Shown piece by piece: positions 1-8,952 of a stretch of 22,117 nt of DNA (position 1 is its first letter; every line of letters starts with the position of its first letter). The DNA lies in IMG/VR virus record IMGVR_UViG_3300037587_000297, positions 1-22,117 of that record; one strand, 5' to 3'. A program made the position numbers and the translations under genes. The notes beneath the pieces were generated by a model, which saw only the letters and a list, made by a program, of their open reading frames with translations, was not told the origin of the DNA and did no database searches. Origin of the DNA: a virus.

Positions 1-415
1 GTGCGGCGGCAGCTTGGCGGGCGTCCTCAGCTGCAGAGCTGTAGTACTCGTTGGTCTCCGGCGAGTTCTCCTCGCCCACGACGGACATCATTACGCCTGC
101 GTGCCTCTCCAATGCCGCCGCCTCGATGCGCGCGACGGACTGGGCGGGGGACTCTTTGAGCAACACCGCTGCCTTTGCGCCGTTCGGCGTTGACGGCCAC
201 TCGCGGGCCGCTGTCGACCTGACGTGCTCCCGCAGCCTGTGCACCTGCGCCTGCAGTCCGTCCAGTTGCACAACCAACCTCGAATTCGTGGCGTTGCTCA
301 AGTCGTACGCTTTCCGTAGCGTGACAAGCTCCTCCGCCACCGTGCCGCGCAATTCAGGTGCCGCATAGCACCCGCCCCTGCAGTCTCTGCCGCCGCATGC
401 GTTACATCCGCTCAT
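1..415 (-). CDS. Cys-rich coiled-coil phage protein, C-terminus off the left edge
   Basis: An open frame starts at ATG 415-413 and runs without a stop to the window edge, giving at least 138 residues. The start is supported by an ATGA overlap with the helicase stop codon (414-412) and by GAGG seven bases upstream. The N-terminus holds four cysteines in about 13 residues (C4, C7, C12, C16), a possible metal-binding knuckle. A heptad-like helical stretch follows (about residues 25-65, rich in L, V, Q, R, E). I do not recognise the family. The position as last cistron of the helicase operon suggests an early or replication-associated accessory role, but this is inference. A 105-aa plus-strand frame over the same bases is treated as a shadow. 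Confidence 0.7.
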   Translation of the reverse strand, partial: MSGCNACGGRDCRGGCYAAPELRGTVAEELVTLRKAYDLSNATNSRLVVQLDGLQAQVHRLREHVRSTAAREWPSTPNGAKAAVLLKESPAQSVARIEAAALERHAGVMMSVVGEENSPETNEYYSSAAEDARQAAAA

Positions 416-2082
416 AACATATCCTCTGCAAATCGGCGCTGGATCGTAGCGATCAGCGCATCTGTGTCGTTAGCGTTCAGAGTGAACGCCGTCCCAATAT
501 CTGTGCCGAATCGGTGAAAGAACCGGCGGTGCTTCTCTGCCAGCTCTCTGCCGTCCGGCTGCATCCCGACCCACCACGCGACCAGCTCTTTCAGCACGCC
601 CCGGCGGTACTTCGCAGCCTGGTGGCGTTTCAGATCTGCGGGGCGGCCGATACGCGGAATGCCACGGGCGATCTGCCCCATGGCGTATTCGTCGTCAGGC
701 ATCTCGGCAGCGGCCATCTGCTCGAACATCGCCGCCATGCCGTCAACGTCCAGTTCCATGAGATCGCCCTCGACTTTATCGGGGGTGCTACGTCCGGTGT
801 ATGTCGGTACCGTGCCGCAGTATGGGCAGGCGGTGTAGTACGCTTCATAGGGCTGGGTGCAGCCGGGTGCCTCTTTGGTGCCCACGCAGACCCGCATCGG
901 TACGGTATCGTCGGGGAACTTACTGACGCCCTTCTCTTTACCGTCCAGCGTCCACTTGCGCGGCCAGTTCGGCATGCCGTGGCGCTCCCAGTTGCGTACC
1001 GGGTCGATGATCACCGCCTCTGACTTGCCGTCCATGATCCGCAGCCCGCGCCCCACCATCTGCAGGTATTTGGCAAGCGATTGAGTCGGCCTGGCCAGGA
1101 CAACGCATTCCACGCTTGGCACGTCGAACCCCTCATCGAACAGATCCACGTTAACCAATACGCGCAAGTCGCCCCGCTCGAAGCGGTCCAGCTCCCTGTC
1201 CCGATCGCCCTGGTCCGTCTTGCCGCTCAGTGCCACCGACTCAATGCCGGCAGTGCGGAACGCTTCGGCCATCTCTTCGGCTGTCTCGACGTCACTGGCG
1301 AACACAATGGCCCGCTTGCCGTCCGCAAACTGCCGGTACTGCCGCACCACGTCGCCCACGATATGCGACTCAACGACCCGCGCCCGTAACGCTTTGCTGT
1401 TGAAGTCGCCGCTTGCCGTAATGGCCAGGCCGCGTACGTCCAGATCAGTCGACGGCGCCTTATAGGTGAACCGACACAGAAAACCCTGATCGATCAACCA
1501 TTTCGTGCTGGGCCCTTCGATCATCTCTTCTGCGAAACCGTCAGCATGCACGCCGAGCCCCTTACCGTCCGCCCGCTCTGGTGTGGCGGTAACCTGCAGC
1601 AGCTTAGCGTGGCTGACCGCCTCGACCGCCCGCGCCCACAACCCGGACGTCACGTAGTGGTGCCCCTCATCGAGTACGCACAACGTCACTTGGCGCAACC
1701 AGCGCTGCAGCTCCGTGTCGTTCTCGCTGCTGCGGCTGGTCATGGTCTGGACCGACACCACGCCGCACTGCGCATTGGGGTCGACGTATGACTTGCCGAA
1801 CAGTTTGAGTTGCTTACGGCGGATCAGTGCGACGGTTTTAGGCGGCGCGATAACGCGATGCTTCACGCCAAGACGCGCCAAACTGCAAGCTATCTGGCTG
1901 ACTATTTCCTTGCGGTGGACGACCGCAGCCGCGCAGCCTTTGTGGTCGTGCATGATGCTGCTGAACACCACGGTCTTACCGGCGCCAGTCGGCAGCACGA
2001 GTAGCACCGCGCGCACTCTGGCCCACGCCTCACGTACCTCGTCGACGGCGGTCTGCTGGTAGGGGCGGAGGTTAAAGGACAT
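412..2082 (-). CDS. DEAH/DEAD-box superfamily 2 DNA helicase
   Basis: This is a 556-aa SF2 helicase that unwinds nucleic acid using ATP, presumably in phage replication. Motifs seen: an N-terminal LRPYQQ Q-like motif, Walker A PTGAGKT (residues 31-37), motif II DEGH (138-141), motif III TATPE, and the arginine-finger motif QMVGRGLR near residue 340. A Cys cluster (C...C, then CPYC) lies near residues 400-425, followed by an unassigned C-terminal domain. The frame is open to 2151, but I chose ATG 2082. Its A is the last base of the upstream gene's TGA (TGATG), and the protein then begins directly at the helicase fold; the extra 23 residues are Arg/Gly-rich and look like out-of-frame sequence. 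The stop overlaps the next cistron by ATGA. Confidence 0.93.
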   Translation of the reverse strand: MSFNLRPYQQTAVDEVREAWARVRAVLLVLPTGAGKTVVFSSIMHDHKGCAAAVVHRKEIVSQIACSLARLGVKHRVIAPPKTVALIRRKQLKLFGKSYVDPNAQCGVVSVQTMTSRSSENDTELQRWLRQVTLCVLDEGHHYVTSGLWARAVEAVSHAKLLQVTATPERADGKGLGVHADGFAEEMIEGPSTKWLIDQGFLCRFTYKAPSTDLDVRGLAITASGDFNSKALRARVVESHIVGDVVRQYRQFADGKRAIVFASDVETAEEMAEAFRTAGIESVALSGKTDQGDRDRELDRFERGDLRVLVNVDLFDEGFDVPSVECVVLARPTQSLAKYLQMVGRGLRIMDGKSEAVIIDPVRNWERHGMPNWPRKWTLDGKEKGVSKFPDDTVPMRVCVGTKEAPGCTQPYEAYYTACPYCGTVPTYTGRSTPDKVEGDLMELDVDGMAAMFEQMAAAEMPDDEYAMGQIARGIPRIGRPADLKRHQAAKYRRGVLKELVAWWVGMQPDGRELAEKHRRFFHRFGTDIGTAFTLNANDTDALIATIQRRFAEDML

Positions 2083-2252
2083 CAGTCGGTCAGCGCGTCG
2101 AGGATCACGCCCAGGGCTACCGCAACCCCCGCCATGCCGACGGCTGCCCAACCCGCAGCGTCCCCCGGCGTTTTCATCACTTCTGGGTCAAAGTAGTACG
2201 TGAAGACGCACATACAAAAGAAGGCAAGGAATATACAGACCACTGTTTTCAT
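2082..2252 (-). CDS. Small two-segment membrane protein in the helicase operon
   Basis: This 56-aa frame has a hydrophobic N-terminal segment (residues 4-20, with three cysteines), a short polar loop around FDPEV, and a second Gly/Ala/Val-rich hydrophobic segment (about 33-52). That makes it a probable two-pass inner-membrane protein. The gene is bracketed by overlaps on both sides: its ATG (2252-2250) forms ATGA with the stop of the upstream gene, and its TGA forms TGATG with the helicase start. A GGGGGA ribosome binding site lies about 7 bases before the ATG. No family is recognised. Small membrane proteins in phage early operons are often host-takeover or superinfection-exclusion factors, but nothing here proves that. 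Confidence 0.72.
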   Translation of the reverse strand: MKTVVCIFLAFFCMCVFTYYFDPEVMKTPGDAAGWAAVGMAGVAVALGVILDALTD

Positions 2253-2840: not shown

Positions 2841-3638
2841 ATGATACGAATCGAATTCCCAGCCGACCGGACTGATATCGCGGCGGCTATTGGACGGGCG
2901 CTGTTAGAGATCGGTGGCGTTGCGCTCAACCATAAAGTGCGCGAACGGATCGGCGATATTGAAGTCGAAACCGTGACGACTACTCAGCCTGTAGCGGGTG
3001 CCGAGGAACTGGCAGATCTGCAGGACTCTAATGAAATGGCGGATAGCAGCCATATCGAGGCTAAGATTCCTGCCAGCCAGGGCGGCACTATGCTCGGCGG
3101 CGCTATCCAGCCGGGCGACGAAGTCAGCTTTGAAACGAACAGCGGCGAAGTTATCACCGGCACGGCGGCCGACAACGGCACTCTCCCGCAAGTCGACGGC
3201 AAGGGCGTGGCGTTTCACGCGGCATTCTGCGGTATCAGTGCTAAACCGTTCTACGAGACAGGCAAAACGTCGGGCCAGTGGAAGAAACGCCGGGGCGTCG
3301 ATCAGGCAGCCTACGATACGTGGTATGCCGAGCAGCTGGAGCAGGGGGCCGAGCAGATGCAGCCGGGTGCCACTCAGACCGCCGTCGATACCGCCGGTGC
3401 GTTCAACGGCGACGGAGCGGAGCCGACGCACACCCACGCACCGACAACGTGCGGCGACTTTATGGGCTGGGCGTCTGCTAAACAGGCGGCTAATCTGCTG
3501 ACTCAGGGTGAAATAACGGACGCGTACACGGGGGCAGGTTTGGTTATCACCGATCTGTTCCCGCCGAACGATGACGCGGTTATTGCCGAGCGCGTCGCCG
3601 TCCTGTACTCCGCACTGTCCGCGAAGGCGGGCGCGTAA
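2841..3638 (+). CDS. Conserved phage replication-module protein with GxWKxRRGVD motif
   Basis: This 265-aa protein has AGGAG about eight bases before its ATG. Its central stretch (near residues 122-160) reads VDGKGV...SGQWKKRRGVD followed by an acidic helix. That pattern recurs, as I recall, in hypothetical proteins encoded beside phage nuclease, SSB and recombination genes, where it is often preceded by a PWDxRIH motif; the PWD part is replaced here. The N-terminal region (about 1-50) looks like an alpha/beta domain, and residues 90-110 look beta-rich. The stop overlaps the next ATG by one base (TAATG), so it is probably translationally coupled to the nuclease gene. Its biochemical role is unknown to me; location suggests DNA replication or recombination. 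Confidence 0.85.
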   Translation: MIRIEFPADRTDIAAAIGRALLEIGGVALNHKVRERIGDIEVETVTTTQPVAGAEELADLQDSNEMADSSHIEAKIPASQGGTMLGGAIQPGDEVSFETNSGEVITGTAADNGTLPQVDGKGVAFHAAFCGISAKPFYETGKTSGQWKKRRGVDQAAYDTWYAEQLEQGAEQMQPGATQTAVDTAGAFNGDGAEPTHTHAPTTCGDFMGWASAKQAANLLTQGEITDAYTGAGLVITDLFPPNDDAVIAERVAVLYSALSAKAGA

Positions 3639-4807
3639 TGTCCGCCCACGCACGACTCGCACCCAGCAGCGCCCCGCAGTGGGGGTACTGCTCTGGGTCA
3701 GTGCCGGCTAATGCTGCCGTGCCGCAGTTCGATACGCAGCCCAGCCGCGAAGGCACGGCGGCGCACTGGACCGGCGAGACGGTGTTGCGGACGTTCGTGG
3801 GCCCGATGCCTGACGGTCGGCTGCTCTGCTCCCAACTGATCGGCGAGACCGCACCGAACGGCGTGGTGATCGACGACAAAATGGCGGAAGGCGCGCAGGT
3901 CTGGGTCGACGACGTTCTGGCGGTCTGCCAGGAGTACGGCGCGCTGCGGTCGATGCTGATCGAGCATCGCGTGCATATGCCGCAAATCCACGCCGACAAC
4001 TGGGGGACTCTCGACACAGCGGTGCCGGTGCCGGACCACGGCCTGCTGTACGTGTGGGACTATAAGAACGGCCACCGCGAACACAGCCCGGTCAACCACC
4101 TGCAGCTGATTGACTACGTGTTCGGCCTGGCTAATGAGATGCGGCTACCGGAGGACACAACCGTTATCCTGCGGATCGTGCAGCCGTTCAGTTACAGCAG
4201 CGCGGGGCCGGTTAAAGAGTGGCGCGTGCAACTCAGTGAACTGTATAGCCGTTTCTTTGAGCATCTGCGCCGCATGGCGCTCGAAGCGCTGACGAACCCG
4301 AAGTTTACGGCAGGCACGCACTGCCGAGACTGCGCTGCGGTTGGCCGATGTCCGACAGCACGCCGGGCGGGCTACAGCGTAATAGCGTACCTGAACGAGC
4401 CGTACCAGATCGACACGATGACGGGCGCCGATCTGGCTGTTGAGCGCAAGCTGTTGGGGGTAGGCGAGACAATCATCAAAGCGCGCAGCAAAGCGATCCA
4501 CGACGAGCTGACCTACCGTATAAACGGCGGCGCGACTGATACCGGCCTGGCCCTGCAGTCGAAGTTCGGCAACCTTGACTGGTCAGTGCCGGCCGCGCAG
4601 GCTATCGCCCTGGCCGGGCAGTTCGATGCCGATATCGCTAAACCGGGCGTGTTGACGCCCACCCAGGCGAAGGCGAAGGTGCCGGCAGCAATGCGGCCCG
4701 CGTTTGAGTCTGTGCTGAAAACCGTAACCGCCCGTAAGCCTACGGGCATGAAATTAATTGATGCGGCGGACTGTCTGTCTGCACAAGCATTTAAGAAGAG
4801 TACATAG
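3638..4807 (+). CDS. DUF2800 Cas4/AddB-like PD-(D/E)XK nuclease with Fe-S cysteines
   Basis: This 389-aa protein matches the DUF2800 family of phage RecB/Cas4-type nucleases. Visible signature: REGTAAH (H43), GTLD (D126), the WDYKNG core (D141, K143) and QLIDY (Q156, Y160), which correspond to the H, D, D-x-K and QxxxY positions of RecB-family nucleases. Cysteines C18 and C229-x2-C232-x5-C238 have the spacing of the 4Fe-4S site of Cas4 and AddB. All key residues are present, so an active exonuclease/endonuclease on DNA ends is expected. The C-terminal 130 residues are helical and uncharacterised. The gene starts one base inside the previous stop and is followed two bases after its own stop by the SSB gene, a pairing common for DUF2800 and DUF2815. 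Confidence 0.9.
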   Translation: MSAHARLAPSSAPQWGYCSGSVPANAAVPQFDTQPSREGTAAHWTGETVLRTFVGPMPDGRLLCSQLIGETAPNGVVIDDKMAEGAQVWVDDVLAVCQEYGALRSMLIEHRVHMPQIHADNWGTLDTAVPVPDHGLLYVWDYKNGHREHSPVNHLQLIDYVFGLANEMRLPEDTTVILRIVQPFSYSSAGPVKEWRVQLSELYSRFFEHLRRMALEALTNPKFTAGTHCRDCAAVGRCPTARRAGYSVIAYLNEPYQIDTMTGADLAVERKLLGVGETIIKARSKAIHDELTYRINGGATDTGLALQSKFGNLDWSVPAAQAIALAGQFDADIAKPGVLTPTQAKAKVPAAMRPAFESVLKTVTARKPTGMKLIDAADCLSAQAFKKST

Positions 4808-4809
4808 CT

Positions 4810-5769
4810 ATGCCAATGTTCAAAGAGACCCACGTCAAAGTCTGCGGCGCTTTCATCGTATGGGACGCCCTGACGGCCCCCGAGACTAATGACGCGGGCA
4901 AAACGAAATGGTCCCTCAAGGTCGTAGTCGACCCAAGTAACCCCGACGTGCAGCTGCTCAACAACCTGGCCCAGCTCACCCTGCAAAACTCGAAGTGGAA
5001 AGGCGTACTGCCTAACGGTGGGCAGATGCCAGTCGGTGTGGCACGTGCCGACGAGTTTAACGGCATGTATACCGGGTGGGCGGTTTTCAACGCGGGCACG
5101 TACCGTGGCCTGCCTAACGTTCACGACGAGGTGACTGGCGCCATTATGGACCCGATGCAGTGGAATAACGCCGCGATGGTCTACAAAGGCCAGAAGGTCG
5201 ATATCCTGGTCAATTGCTACGACTACGACAATAAGTCGAAAGGCATTGCGGCAGGCTTGGAGGCGCTTTCGTTTATTGTCAGCGCTAACGCCCCGCGTCA
5301 GAACTTCGGCGGTGGTGGCATTGATACGGCCGGCGCGTTCGGTGGCGGTAACGGCCAACAGCAGAACGGCTACAACCAAAACCAGAACAACGGCCAACAG
5401 CAGAACAATGGTGGCTATGGCCAAAACCAGAACAACGGCCAACAGCAGAACAATGGCCAACAGCAGAACGATGGCGGCGGTAACGGCCAACAGCAGAACA
5501 ATGGCCAACAGCAGAACGATGGCGGCGGTAACGGCCAACAGCAGAACAATAACGGCTATAACCAAAACCAGAACAACGGCCAACAGCAGAACAATGGTGG
5601 CTATAGCCAAAACCAGAACAACGGCCAACAGCAGAACAATGGCCAACAGCAGAACGGCTATAACCAAAACCAGAACAACGGCCAACAGCAGAACAATGGC
5701 CAACAGCAGAACAACGGTGGCGGTAACGGCCAACCGCAGCAGGCGCATAACTTCCTGCCGCAGCAGTAA
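4810..5769 (+). CDS. DUF2815 ssDNA-binding protein with long Q/N/G/Y repeat tail
   Basis: This is a 319-aa protein. Residues 1-165 match the DUF2815 family of phage OB-fold single-stranded DNA-binding proteins, as judged from the conserved start (FKETHVKVCGAF...W), the KWSLKVVVD strand and the YKGQKVDILVNCYDYDN region. It should coat ssDNA during replication and feed it to the DUF2800 nuclease and the polymerase. Residues 181-319 are very unusual: 12 perfect NGQQQN units plus one degenerate copy, broken by GYNQNQN, GYGQNQN, GYSQNQN and GGG linkers, ending AHNFLPQQ. The tail is almost uncharged (two Asp) and lacks the acidic DDDIPF-type tip of bacterial SSBs. This is a low-complexity, prion-like, probably disordered domain. 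Confidence 0.9.
   Translation: MPMFKETHVKVCGAFIVWDALTAPETNDAGKTKWSLKVVVDPSNPDVQLLNNLAQLTLQNSKWKGVLPNGGQMPVGVARADEFNGMYTGWAVFNAGTYRGLPNVHDEVTGAIMDPMQWNNAAMVYKGQKVDILVNCYDYDNKSKGIAAGLEALSFIVSANAPRQNFGGGGIDTAGAFGGGNGQQQNGYNQNQNNGQQQNNGGYGQNQNNGQQQNNGQQQNDGGGNGQQQNNGQQQNDGGGNGQQQNNNGYNQNQNNGQQQNNGGYSQNQNNGQQQNNGQQQNGYNQNQNNGQQQNNGQQQNNGGGNGQPQQAHNFLPQQ
5350..5743 (+). repeat. In-frame tandem repeats encoding NGQQQN units
   Basis: Coding repeats are built around the 18-base unit AACGGCCAACAGCAGAAC, in composite units separated by linker codons for GYNQNQN, GGYGQNQN or DGGG. Twelve units encode NGQQQN exactly and a thirteenth reads NGQPQQ. Nucleotide identity between units is near total, with AAC/AAT variation in the flanking Asn codon. 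This suggests recent expansion by slippage or unequal recombination, and copy number may vary between relatives. Unit lengths are irregular and the frame stays open, so it is not a CRISPR array. Confidence 0.95.
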
Positions 5770-5777
5770 CCCAACCC

Positions 5778-5805
5778 GCCGCCCTGGCTTGTTTAGCGGG
5801 GCGGC
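5778..5805 (+). other. GC-rich intergenic hairpin without a U-tract
   Basis: GCCGCCC (5778-5784) pairs with GGGCGGC (5799-5805) across a 14-base loop in the 53-base gap between the SSB and exonuclease genes. No T-run follows, so it is not a typical intrinsic terminator. It may protect the SSB mRNA 3' end or modulate readthrough. Confidence 0.5.
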
Positions 5806-5822
5806 CGCACTGAGGTAACGAT

Positions 5823-6338
5823 ATGAACCACGTAATGCTCGACCTTGAAACGCTCGGCAACGGCCCGACCGCTGCCATCGTCGCGATAGGCGCCGTACTG
5901 TTTGATCAGTCCGGCGTCGGCACACACGTCAGCTCGTTCTACTCGCCCGTCCTGGCGCAGTCCTCGATTGATGCAGGGCTGACCGTTAACGGCAGCACGA
6001 TCGAATGGTGGATGGGCCAATCTGACGCTGCGCGGGCGGTATTCTCAGAGCACGCCCCGCAACTGGCGGAAGTCCTGCAGAACTTCGCGAATTGGCTCCC
6101 TGGCCACTGCAAACTATGGGGCAACGGTGCGTCGTTTGATAACGCGATTCTATCGAACGCATACCGGGCAGTCGGCCACATCCAGCCGTGGGCGTTCTGG
6201 GACGACCGTTGCTACCGCACCGCCGTTGCGGGCGTCACCGTTAAACGGAAACAGCTCGGCACGCACCACAACGCGCTCGATGACGCTCGCAGCCAAGCGG
6301 AGCATTTGATCGCGTGGGCGCCGCAAGCTATCTGTTAG
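5823..6338 (+). CDS. DEDDh 3'-5' exonuclease (DnaQ-like / Rv2179c-like)
   Basis: This 171-aa protein is a stand-alone RNase H-fold exonuclease. Catalytic positions seen: D7 and E9 in MLDLETLG, D106 in GNGASFDNAIL, and H149 with D154 in HHNALDDA, the complete DEDDh set. Size and the early YPV-like strand order fit the phage Rv2179c-like / T4 DexA-like group, which degrades RNA or DNA 3' ends with Mg2+. GAGG lies nine bases before ATG. Encoded between SSB and polymerase, it may supply nucleotides, trim 3' ends or add proofreading to the exo domain in the polymerase. The stop TAG immediately precedes the -35 of an internal promoter. Confidence 0.93.
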   Translation: MNHVMLDLETLGNGPTAAIVAIGAVLFDQSGVGTHVSSFYSPVLAQSSIDAGLTVNGSTIEWWMGQSDAARAVFSEHAPQLAEVLQNFANWLPGHCKLWGNGASFDNAILSNAYRAVGHIQPWAFWDDRCYRTAVAGVTVKRKQLGTHHNALDDARSQAEHLIAWAPQAIC

Positions 6339-6401: not shown

Positions 6402-6635
6402 ATGTTTAGAAGTGAAGAACAATTGCGGCACATCGAAGATCTTAAAAAGTCACACGAACATCTGGCGAAGGCAAGAGAAGGATGGCGTAAATCAGAGGAT
6501 ACCCTCCTGTCGTCCGAACGCGCCTGCAACGAACTGCGCCACCGCAACGGGCAGTTAGAGGGCACTATCCTTAATCTAACCGAGGCACTGCACAACCTCT
6601 CCGCCGCATACGCTAAGGCGGTCGGCGGTGAGTGA
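6402..6635 (+). CDS. Small coiled-coil protein preceding the polymerase
   Basis: This 77-aa protein is almost entirely a charged helix with Leu/Ile heptad spacing (HIEDLKKSHEHLAKAREGW... and LEGTILNLTEALHNL), so it is probably a coiled-coil dimer. The frame is open further upstream, but that part overlaps the promoter. ATG 6402 is the first start after the predicted transcription start. It has only a weak AGGCGGG Shine-Dalgarno sequence. Its end overlaps the polymerase GTG start by eight bases, which implies translational coupling. No family is recognised; it could be a polymerase accessory or a regulator. Confidence 0.7.
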   Translation: MFRSEEQLRHIEDLKKSHEHLAKAREGWRKSEDTLLSSERACNELRHRNGQLEGTILNLTEALHNLSAAYAKAVGGE

Positions 6636-8952
6636 CCCCACACTGCTCGCAGCCGGGACGCAGATCCCGGTCGCGCTCTCGCATTCGACTGTGCTGCCTT
6701 CGATGGACTTCGAGACGTACAGCGAGGCGGGCTACACCTTCGACCCGGACGGCCGAGTTCGTGGCGTTGGCGCGCAGGGCAAGGGCGGATTACCGGTAGT
6801 CGGCACGCCCAACTACGCGGCGCACCCCACTACGGAAGTGCTATGCCTCTATTACGACCTCAAAGACGGACGCGGACGCCGGGGCTGGTTCCCTGGCGCG
6901 CCCGATCCGGTTGATCTGCTCGACCATATCCGTAACGGCGGGCCGATCGCTGCCTGGAACGCCGGCTTTGAATTCTACATCTGGAACATGGTCTGTGTCC
7001 GCCGCTACGGCTGGCCGGTCCTACAGATCGAGCAGTGTCATTGCGACATGGCGAAGTCCCGCCGGCACAGCCTGCCCGGCTCACTGGCAAACGCCGCCAA
7101 GGTACTCGGCACGCCGGATAAAGACAGCGCGGGCAAACGCCTAATCCAGAAGCTGACGCGCCCCCACACTCCAACGAAGAACCGCAAGGCGCACCGCTGG
7201 ACGCCCGCCACGGCGTGGGACGACTTCACGGCGTTCTACGCGTACTGCGACGTTGACGTGATGACGGAGGACCACGCCAGCGCCCGCACGCCCGATCTGA
7301 CGGAGCACGAGCGGTCCGTGTGGCTCATGGATCAGACGATAAACGCCAGGGGCGTACCGGTGGACGTGCAGACCCTGGACGCTGCGCTCGACATACAGCG
7401 GCAGGCTGAAGAGAAGTATTGCGCGGAGCTGTCGCGGATAACGGGCGGCGCAGTGCAGGCCGCCTCTGAACTGCCCGCGCTAAAGACTTGGCTTTCGATC
7501 CGGGGCGTCGACATGCCGAACATGACGAAGGACACGATCGACGACGTGGTCAAGCACCGACAGACGCCGACAGGCCAGATAGTCGCAGGCGCACCGCTGC
7601 GGACCCTGGAGATCAGGCAGACGTTAGGCGCGGCCAATGTTAAGAAGCTCGCAAAGATCAAGCTGCAGGTCAGTTCAGACGGACGCCTGCGCAACCAATA
7701 CATGTACTGCGGTGCCGACCGCACCGGGCGCTGGTCCTCCGCTGCAGCTGATGACGACGCCAGTAACTCACAGCTCCAGAACGTGACCGCCAAGGGCCCG
7801 AAGTCGTGCCGGTGTGGCAGCTGCGGCGGGCTGTTCGGGCGCGACATCGAGAGCATAGGCTGTCCCTGGTGCGGTCAGTGGGTCGACATCGAGCAGCAGC
7901 CCGACTGGACGATCGAAGCCGTTGAAGCGGCTATCGGCGACATTCGCACGCACGACCTGGCGACAGTTGAACGGATATGGGGCGACCCGATCGCTCTGCT
8001 GTGCGGCTGCCTGCGCGGACTGTTTAAAGCCGCACCGGGCAAGAAATTCATCTGTTGCGACTTCAGCGCCATCGAAGCCGTGGCCGCCGCCTGTCTGGCC
8101 CGGTGCCAGTGGCGCATCGAGGTATTCAGCGGACACGGTAAGATCTACGAGCAGAGCGCCGCCAACGCCACGGGCATACCGTTCGATGAGATCTTGCAGT
8201 ACAAACGCGACAACGGCATGCACCACCCCGCCCGTAAGAAAATCGGAAAGGTGCGCGAGCTGGCGGGCGGCTACGGCGGCTGGATCGGTGCGTGGAAGAA
8301 CTTCGGCGCCGACGAGTTTATGAGTGACGACGAGATCAAGGCGGACGTGCTCAAGTGGCGCGCCGAGTCACCCGAGATAGTCGAGATGTGGGGCGGGCAG
8401 TTCCGATGGTGTGGCCCAGGCAAGTGGGACTACAGGCCCGAACTGTTTGGCCTGGAAGGCATGGCGATCAAAGCCATACTCAACCCCGGCCAGTGCTTCA
8501 GCCATATCGATATCACCTACGGCGTGTGGGACGACATTCTGTTCTGCAGGCTACCGTCCGGGCGCTACTTGCACTATCACCGCCCGCGTCTCGCGTCAGT
8601 AGCCGATAAATTGAATCGCGGCCCGTCGTATCAGATTACTTTCGAGGGGTACAACAGCAACAGCACGAAAGGCCCGATCGGTTGGCATCGGTTGGAAACA
8701 TACGGGGGTCGGCTGTTCGAGAATGTCGTCCAGGCTGTCGCCCTCGATATCCAAGCCGAAGCGCTGCTGCGCTGCGAGGCGCGAGGTTACCCAATCGTGA
8801 TGCACACCCACGATGAGGGCGTTGCGGAAGTGCCGCACGGCTTCGGATCAGTTGAAGAAATGGCCACCATAATGTCAGAGCGCCCCGCGTGGGCTGCCTG
8901 GTGGCCCCTGCGTGCTGCGGGCTGGCGACACGAACGATACCAGAAGGATTAA
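6628..8952 (+). CDS. Family A DNA polymerase with 3'-5' exonuclease domain
   Basis: This 774-aa protein is a phage-type DNA polymerase I. The exonuclease domain has MDFETYS (Exo I), AAWNAGFEFYIW (Exo II) and YCDVDV (Exo III). The polymerase domain has DRTGRWSS...LQN, motif A CDFSAIE (D478, E483), motif B from K526 through KKIGKVRELAGGYGG, and motif C HDE (H728-E730). All catalytic carboxylates are present. An insert between the RTGRWSS and motif A regions contains C396-x2-C399 and C412-x2-C415, a zinc ribbon. The GTG start at 6628 overlaps the previous gene and lies after AAGG. ATG at residue 26 would sit at the Exo I aspartate and truncate the fold. There is no 5' nuclease domain. This is the replicative polymerase. 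Confidence 0.95.
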   Translation: MSDPTLLAAGTQIPVALSHSTVLPSMDFETYSEAGYTFDPDGRVRGVGAQGKGGLPVVGTPNYAAHPTTEVLCLYYDLKDGRGRRGWFPGAPDPVDLLDHIRNGGPIAAWNAGFEFYIWNMVCVRRYGWPVLQIEQCHCDMAKSRRHSLPGSLANAAKVLGTPDKDSAGKRLIQKLTRPHTPTKNRKAHRWTPATAWDDFTAFYAYCDVDVMTEDHASARTPDLTEHERSVWLMDQTINARGVPVDVQTLDAALDIQRQAEEKYCAELSRITGGAVQAASELPALKTWLSIRGVDMPNMTKDTIDDVVKHRQTPTGQIVAGAPLRTLEIRQTLGAANVKKLAKIKLQVSSDGRLRNQYMYCGADRTGRWSSAAADDDASNSQLQNVTAKGPKSCRCGSCGGLFGRDIESIGCPWCGQWVDIEQQPDWTIEAVEAAIGDIRTHDLATVERIWGDPIALLCGCLRGLFKAAPGKKFICCDFSAIEAVAAACLARCQWRIEVFSGHGKIYEQSAANATGIPFDEILQYKRDNGMHHPARKKIGKVRELAGGYGGWIGAWKNFGADEFMSDDEIKADVLKWRAESPEIVEMWGGQFRWCGPGKWDYRPELFGLEGMAIKAILNPGQCFSHIDITYGVWDDILFCRLPSGRYLHYHRPRLASVADKLNRGPSYQITFEGYNSNSTKGPIGWHRLETYGGRLFENVVQAVALDIQAEALLRCEARGYPIVMHTHDEGVAEVPHGFGSVEEMATIMSERPAWAAWWPLRAAGWRHERYQKD

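Follow-up and report, generated by a model that had tools for sequence, protein, structure and literature searches.

A phage single-stranded DNA-binding protein with a hypervariable Q/N/G linker and a conserved neutral C-terminal tip

The window analyzed in this study, a 22,117-nucleotide stretch of virus DNA (IMG/VR record IMGVR_UViG_3300037587_000297), encodes a single-stranded DNA-binding protein (SSB) that carries a short neutral peptide at its C-terminus, which is conserved among relatives and is separated from the OB domain by a hypervariable low-complexity linker. This architecture is probably best explained as an OB domain joined through a neutral, slippage-built tether to a docking tip.

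Results

Predicted fold and genome neighborhood of the SSB

The SSB gene and its parts were assigned as follows.

4810..5769, plus strand: gp2.5/Enc34-type phage SSB gene, 319 aa
4810..5343, plus strand: predicted OB-fold ssDNA-binding domain, residues 1–178 (PF10991, PHROG 112, AlphaFold2 with Foldseek and VIA-align)
5344..5730, plus strand: hypervariable, repeat-built Q/N/G linker, residues 179–307, with five G-Y motifs; predicted disordered
5731..5766, plus strand: conserved neutral C-terminal tip QPQQAHNFLPQQ, residues 308–319, with NFLP at 314–317

The OB part alone matched PF10991 (Enc34_ssDNA-bd; E 6e-10, 39.5 bits at a cut-off of 26 bits) and PHROG 112 (Gp2.5-like SSB; E 3e-12), while the full-length protein matched nothing in the Pfam and PHROG libraries, apparently owing to score bias from the tail. 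An NCBIfam search with the SSB gave no match either. In the AlphaFold2 model, the OB domain mostly had a pLDDT >90, and residues 180–319 were mostly <50. When this model was searched with Foldseek, the Enc34 SSB (5odj) ranked first (4e-12) and T7 gp2.5 eighth (3e-6); VIA-align gave Z scores of 18.9 for the Enc34 SSB (5odk/5odl) and 14.7 for T7 gp2.5 (1je5), with general OB folds well below both at about 7. On the modeled structure, the window SSB is a member of the T7 gp2.5/Enc34-type fold family and presumably binds ssDNA. Consistently, a prior sequence-only reading of this DNA had called it a phage SSB with a DUF2815 OB fold, DUF2815 being the name used in the Enc34 paper for the domain that is now PF10991 (PMC5686142). 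Weak superoxide dismutase matches in a PDB sequence search were dismissed as chance, the fold search having recovered Enc34 and T7 gp2.5. The bacterial SSB family PF00436 was not matched in the window record, while the same search matched 10 of 14 control genomes.

Other replication genes in the window are the following.

3638..4807, plus strand: DUF2800/PD-(D/E)XK nuclease, upstream of the SSB gene
5823..6338, plus strand: Rv2179c-like 3′-5′ exonuclease, adjoining the SSB gene
6628..8952, plus strand: family A DNA polymerase, candidate partner
412..2151, minus strand: SF2-type DNA helicase, candidate partner

The SSB lies in a replication operon, with nuclease, exonuclease, and family A polymerase genes nearby. 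The DUF2800 nuclease was found upstream of the SSB in all loci with sufficient upstream DNA, and the family A polymerase downstream of nearly all main-clade SSBs with sufficient downstream DNA.

Composition and repeats of the tail

The 141-residue tail (residues 179–319) comprises 51 Q, 44 N, 32 G, 5 Y, 2 D, 1 S, and no K or R, with a Q+N share of 67%. Its prion-like character was judged by Q/N counts and aromatic density. The threshold of Michelitsch and Weissman is reportedly at least 30 Q+N per 80 residues, and the densest 80-residue stretch of the tail holds 58. The expectation of a disordered, low-charge Q/N/G tail was upheld by the composition and the low pLDDT, disorder being a prediction from the model. 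In contrast, with only five tyrosines and a single serine, the tail does not bear out the FUS-like tyrosine stickers flanked by Gly/Ser that had been ascribed to it, which in FUS-like domains are dense and regularly spaced in a G/S-Y-G/S context.

Tandem Repeats Finder reported several overlapping arrays at 5340–5739. Identical peptide 5-mers within the tail used the same codons in 66% of pairs, as compared with a mean of 8.5% and a maximum of 18% in synonymous-codon shuffles, indicating that the repeat grew by DNA duplication and that the protein pattern of GYNQ, GYGQ, and GYSQ is largely its consequence. The same codon-sharing signature was present in most relatives with repetitive linkers. 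A hairpin 3′ of the SSB stop codon was no better than shuffles (z −1.0), and no terminator is claimed.

Linker variability among relatives

A tblastn search found 14 phage records, whose hosts are all marine or aquatic gammaproteobacteria, and two alignment-based IMG/VR scans added about 50 further loci with neighborhoods much like that of the window. Alignment queries were required, as a viral-contig scan with the window OB as a single sequence gave no matches; a plasmid search for SSB relatives found none. One genome-contig match (L055, PBFM01000045.1) was binned into a Neomarinimicrobiota MAG. It equals the IMG/VR contig L024 in length and range and encodes a phage SSB with 99% OB identity to that of Alteromonas phage R9Y2; it is probably a misbinned phage.

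Nearly every relative carries a low-complexity linker after the OB domain, yet the sequences are wholly different, with motifs such as GYNGGQGNQ, GQPGYGGQPQ, QPMQQQQ, QQQQQWGQP, QQQYQQAP, AQGGYQQP, NGNGNG, and APPVYQ. Taking the linker as the tail minus its last 12 residues, 30 non-redundant complete relatives (OB identity <80%, median 47%) were compared. Linker length ranged from 14 to 174 residues, the Q+N fraction from 0.04 to 0.84, and aromatics from 0 to 8.9 per 100 residues, with none at all in L005 and L006. Low charge was the sole trait common to the linkers (2.7% vs. 17.6% in the OB domains), and K/R were absent from 21 of the 30, the window's among them. This conserved low charge could reflect selection on more than length.

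Tail length and repeat number differed even between nearly identical SSBs: tails have 127 vs. 89 residues at 100% OB identity (L006/L035) and 95 vs. 44 at 99% (L004/L039), and the SSBs of phages R9Y2 and R9Y3 have 366 and 304 total residues, respectively. At 86% OB identity, L013 and L015 have tails of 120 and 14 residues. In L015, the linker is lost and the tip kept, so that the protein consists of the OB domain and a 14-residue tail; L015 and L016 share 4672 bases without a difference, and the two therefore count as one virus. Plaque-forming phage isolates also include short tails, of 23 (L007), 26 (L005), and 43 (L002) residues.

Three further features were observed at these loci. Immediately 5′ of the linker-less SSB gene, a reading frame (L016:1-141) encodes leucine-rich repeats of 20 residues each (LxLxGTGITSLPEGLSVGGN). 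In the Vibrio phage MG592395.1 (L010:3594-3717), the Q-rich repeats of the SSB tail are labelled CRISPR spacers in GenBank but are actually coding. Many relatives' tails contain or end in a module of about 30 residues, Y-x-x-x-x-x-A-G-W-T-D-x-x-L-x-x-x-G-M-M, occurring once or twice (L023, L028, L046, L049, L051, L053, L057, and L094–L100), which has no Pfam match and is covered by PHROG 7011.

Contigs in the IMG/VR set often break within the repeats. Among 38 contigs with the SSB gene, 13 end inside the tail and 6 in the remainder of the next 4 kb, a tail excess with p of about 2e-11. As short-read assemblies break in the tail, the window may show too few repeat copies, and the exact count may be wrong. 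The contigs ending there are L014, L019, L024–L026, L030, L031, L033, L038, L041–L043, and L098; as a result, database genomes of this phage group are cut or permuted at the SSB tail.

Exchange of the OB-linker part

The closest relative, L012, shares 93% identity with the window in DUF2800 and 94% in the polymerase, whereas its OB domain is only 66% identical and its linker unrelated; its tip is the same. DNA identity between the two resumes some 40 bases ahead of the stop codon, spans the tip, and extends into the 3′ non-coding stretch. Across window positions 4700–5810, DNA identity was about 90% in the neighbor genes, 60–78% in the OB part, and about 95% in the tip and the 3′ stretch. This mosaic, read from the two DNA sequences, suggests an exchange of SSB alleles in which recombination at a point within the linker replaced the OB-linker part. 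As the shared DNA runs beyond the stop, this pair alone is no proof of selection on the tip, for which the test on the 30 proteins is used.

A conserved neutral C-terminal tip

The window tip (tip peptide GQPQQAHNFLPQQ, with F315 and L316) has the core QAHNFLPQ, and the family consensus is Q-A-(H/Q)-N-F-L-P-(Q/N). A conserved C-terminal peptide with a hydrophobic core, [FWY][LMI]P within the last 20 residues, followed the variable linker in 25 of the 30 non-redundant relatives, as compared with 0.14 proteins on average and a maximum of three in 2000 tail shuffles. In the 27 motif-bearing proteins, the proline is invariant while encoded by four codons, and the leucine uses five; this synonymous variety indicates that selection acts on the protein. 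The sequence-only reading was right that the usual acidic tip is absent, but it had overlooked this conserved non-acidic one.

The tip was further sought by scanning 2.9 million viral contigs for DNA coding for QAHNF(L/F)P. The 14 matches were five SSB C-termini and nine short unrelated reading frames, and in the flanking kilobases, the long frames ending in the tip motif were SSBs, plus a few scattered ones, mostly on the opposite strand or short. Degraded tips were found in L002 (NGFAPQQ) and L005 (NNNFHGQ), and in L023, L032, and L046 the motif or its relic is internal. The literature searched, with partial coverage, yielded no description of a phage SSB with a Q-rich tail or an NFLP tip.

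Farther from the window SSB, the PF10991 proteins of Firmicutes, Bacteroidetes, and Enc34-type phages for the most part carry acidic tips, with ends such as EDDFLA, DDDFLS, DDDFLN, EDEDFLS, DDDLLG, DDDPIFD, and DEDEWDEDEV. In detail, their last 25 residues contain 6–13 D/E in 10 of 12 proteins, the other two (L058 and L059) being without an acidic tip, whereas the window SSB has none there and no acidic C-terminal run. In a sister group, PAPDFL or PAHDFL occurs within A/P-rich linkers, and a D precedes the aromatic residue in 3 of 27 main-clade tips. Judged from the similarity of protein ends rather than from a tree, the NFLP clade appears to have lost the acids of a DDFL-type tip and kept its F-L core. 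In one relative (L073, IMGVR_UViG_3300023242_000523, 4001–4890), the SSB ends with AHNFLPNNGGDSYHDDIPF, in which the phage AHNFLP tip is followed by the canonical bacterial SSB-Ct DDIPF, as if the double tip addressed both phage and host partners.

Discussion

A conserved terminal peptide on a variable linker points to a tether-plus-tip architecture. In the explanation that we favor, the OB domain would coat ssDNA, and the nearly uncharged, predicted disordered linker, which lengthens, shortens, and changes through in-frame slippage of DNA repeats and recombination, would act mainly as a flexible tether. The neutral tip (consensus QA-H/Q-N-F-L-P-x-Q) would dock on a replication protein, as a counterpart of the acidic, hydrophobic-ended SSB tips that retains the F-L core while the acids are gone. 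In E. coli SSB, partners are bound through the acidic tip alone, not through the linker (PMC7145534). The partner of the window tip is probably encoded by a neighboring gene, with the polymerase, the helicase, and the DUF2800 nuclease as candidates. The exonuclease was rejected as a sole or obligatory partner, as it is missing beside the SSB in many loci. A more specific version, which we put forward tentatively, is that the NFLP tip has its own phage-encoded receptor, which would uncouple recruitment from autoinhibition by DNA mimicry, while fast repeat slippage would set the length of the tether and, in some members such as L073, a second, host-type DDIPF tip would recruit host proteins as well.

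Rather than binding a partner protein, the tip might dock into the ssDNA groove of its own or a neighboring subunit, for autoinhibition or cooperativity. The C-terminus occupies the neighbor's groove in crystals of Enc34, DUF2815 proteins, and T7 gp2.5, Enc34 binds dsDNA once its C-terminus is removed (PMC5686142), and OB-tip contacts are known for E. coli SSB, where they aid condensation (PMC11947617). However, the tails docked in crystals are acidic and could mimic the charge of DNA, whereas the window tip is neutral and was modeled at low confidence by AlphaFold2 (mean pLDDT of about 48), so we consider groove docking unlikely. Still less probable in our judgment is the proposal of the sequence-only reading that the tail works like the prion-like domain of FUS and serves chiefly to form condensates in which SSB, nuclease, and polymerase are concentrated. 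The Q/N richness and the lack of K/R fit such a role, as does the low linker charge throughout the family, and the cited bacterial precedent holds: E. coli SSB condenses via its Q/G linker, with a role in the process for glycines, aromatics, and positively charged residues (arginines) (PMC12143593). Since that linker is of a similar low-charge type, condensation of the window tail is possible as a contribution. As a main role it was not sustained, because neither Q/N nor aromatic content is conserved, two linkers lack aromatics altogether, and most linkers, including the window's, have no K/R; as judged from the relatives' sequences, the condensation drivers of the E. coli SSB linker and the FUS tyrosines are not conserved. 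Repeat number, proposed for comparison in relatives, varies between near-identical SSBs, and the finding named beforehand as counter-evidence, close relatives lacking the tail with no loss of function, is largely borne out, as L015 has the tip alone and isolates live with tails of 23–43 residues.

Two other explanations concern the repeat itself. An assembly artefact, in which repeats were collapsed or joined into chimeras, might account for the length of the tail and its exact repeat pattern, and the excess of contig ends in the tail would fit it, but the reading frame and the tip are intact in the window and isolate genomes have the same architecture; copy number alone is doubtful, and we consider an artefact very improbable. 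Strong tandem DNA repeats in a replication gene might also act as DNA, as iterons or an intragenic replication origin, with the protein sequence as a by-product, and the phage lambda origin indeed lies within the O gene. However, the cumulative GC skew shows no turning point at the repeat, and the repeat DNA is unrelated among relatives and absent in L015, so this idea, to which we give hardly any credence, was rejected.

An acidic C-terminal tip is described as a hallmark of bacterial and phage SSBs, and a clade that lacks the acids while its F-L core is under selection lets docking and DNA competition be separated. The natural linkers, of 14–174 residues, rich in Q, G, P, A, or N, and with or without aromatics, lie between conserved OB domains and tips and form a ready test set, and such a series could show whether SSB linkers act beyond tethering, condensation included.

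Comparison with known systems

FUS-type prion-like domains resemble the window tail in low complexity, Q/G/Y content, and few charges. The FUS domain has about 27 Tyr in 214 residues, whereas the window tail has few Tyr, almost no Ser, and no Arg, and is not conserved in relatives. The SSB of the Enterobacter/Hafnia phage Enc34 (ORF6; PDB 5ODJ/5ODK/5ODL) shares with the window SSB the OB fold, a gene beside a family A polymerase, and an unstructured C-terminal tail; however, its tail is short and strongly acidic (D/E at 16 of its final 29 positions), while that of the window is long, neutral, and repetitive, with an NFLP end. T7 gp2.5 is of the same fold class, and its tail terminates in an aromatic residue that is essential for function, according to the title of Ghosh et al. 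(2009) as cited in PMC9917605. The T7 tail is acidic and short, in contrast to the window tail, which has no acidic run and an aromatic residue followed by L-P-Q-Q. E. coli SSB, for which both linker condensation (PMC12143593) and tip docking (PMC7145534) are known, resembles the window SSB in having an OB domain, a low-charge Q/G linker, and a conserved tip, but its tip DDDIPF is acidic, while the window tip is neutral and its protein does not belong to PF00436.
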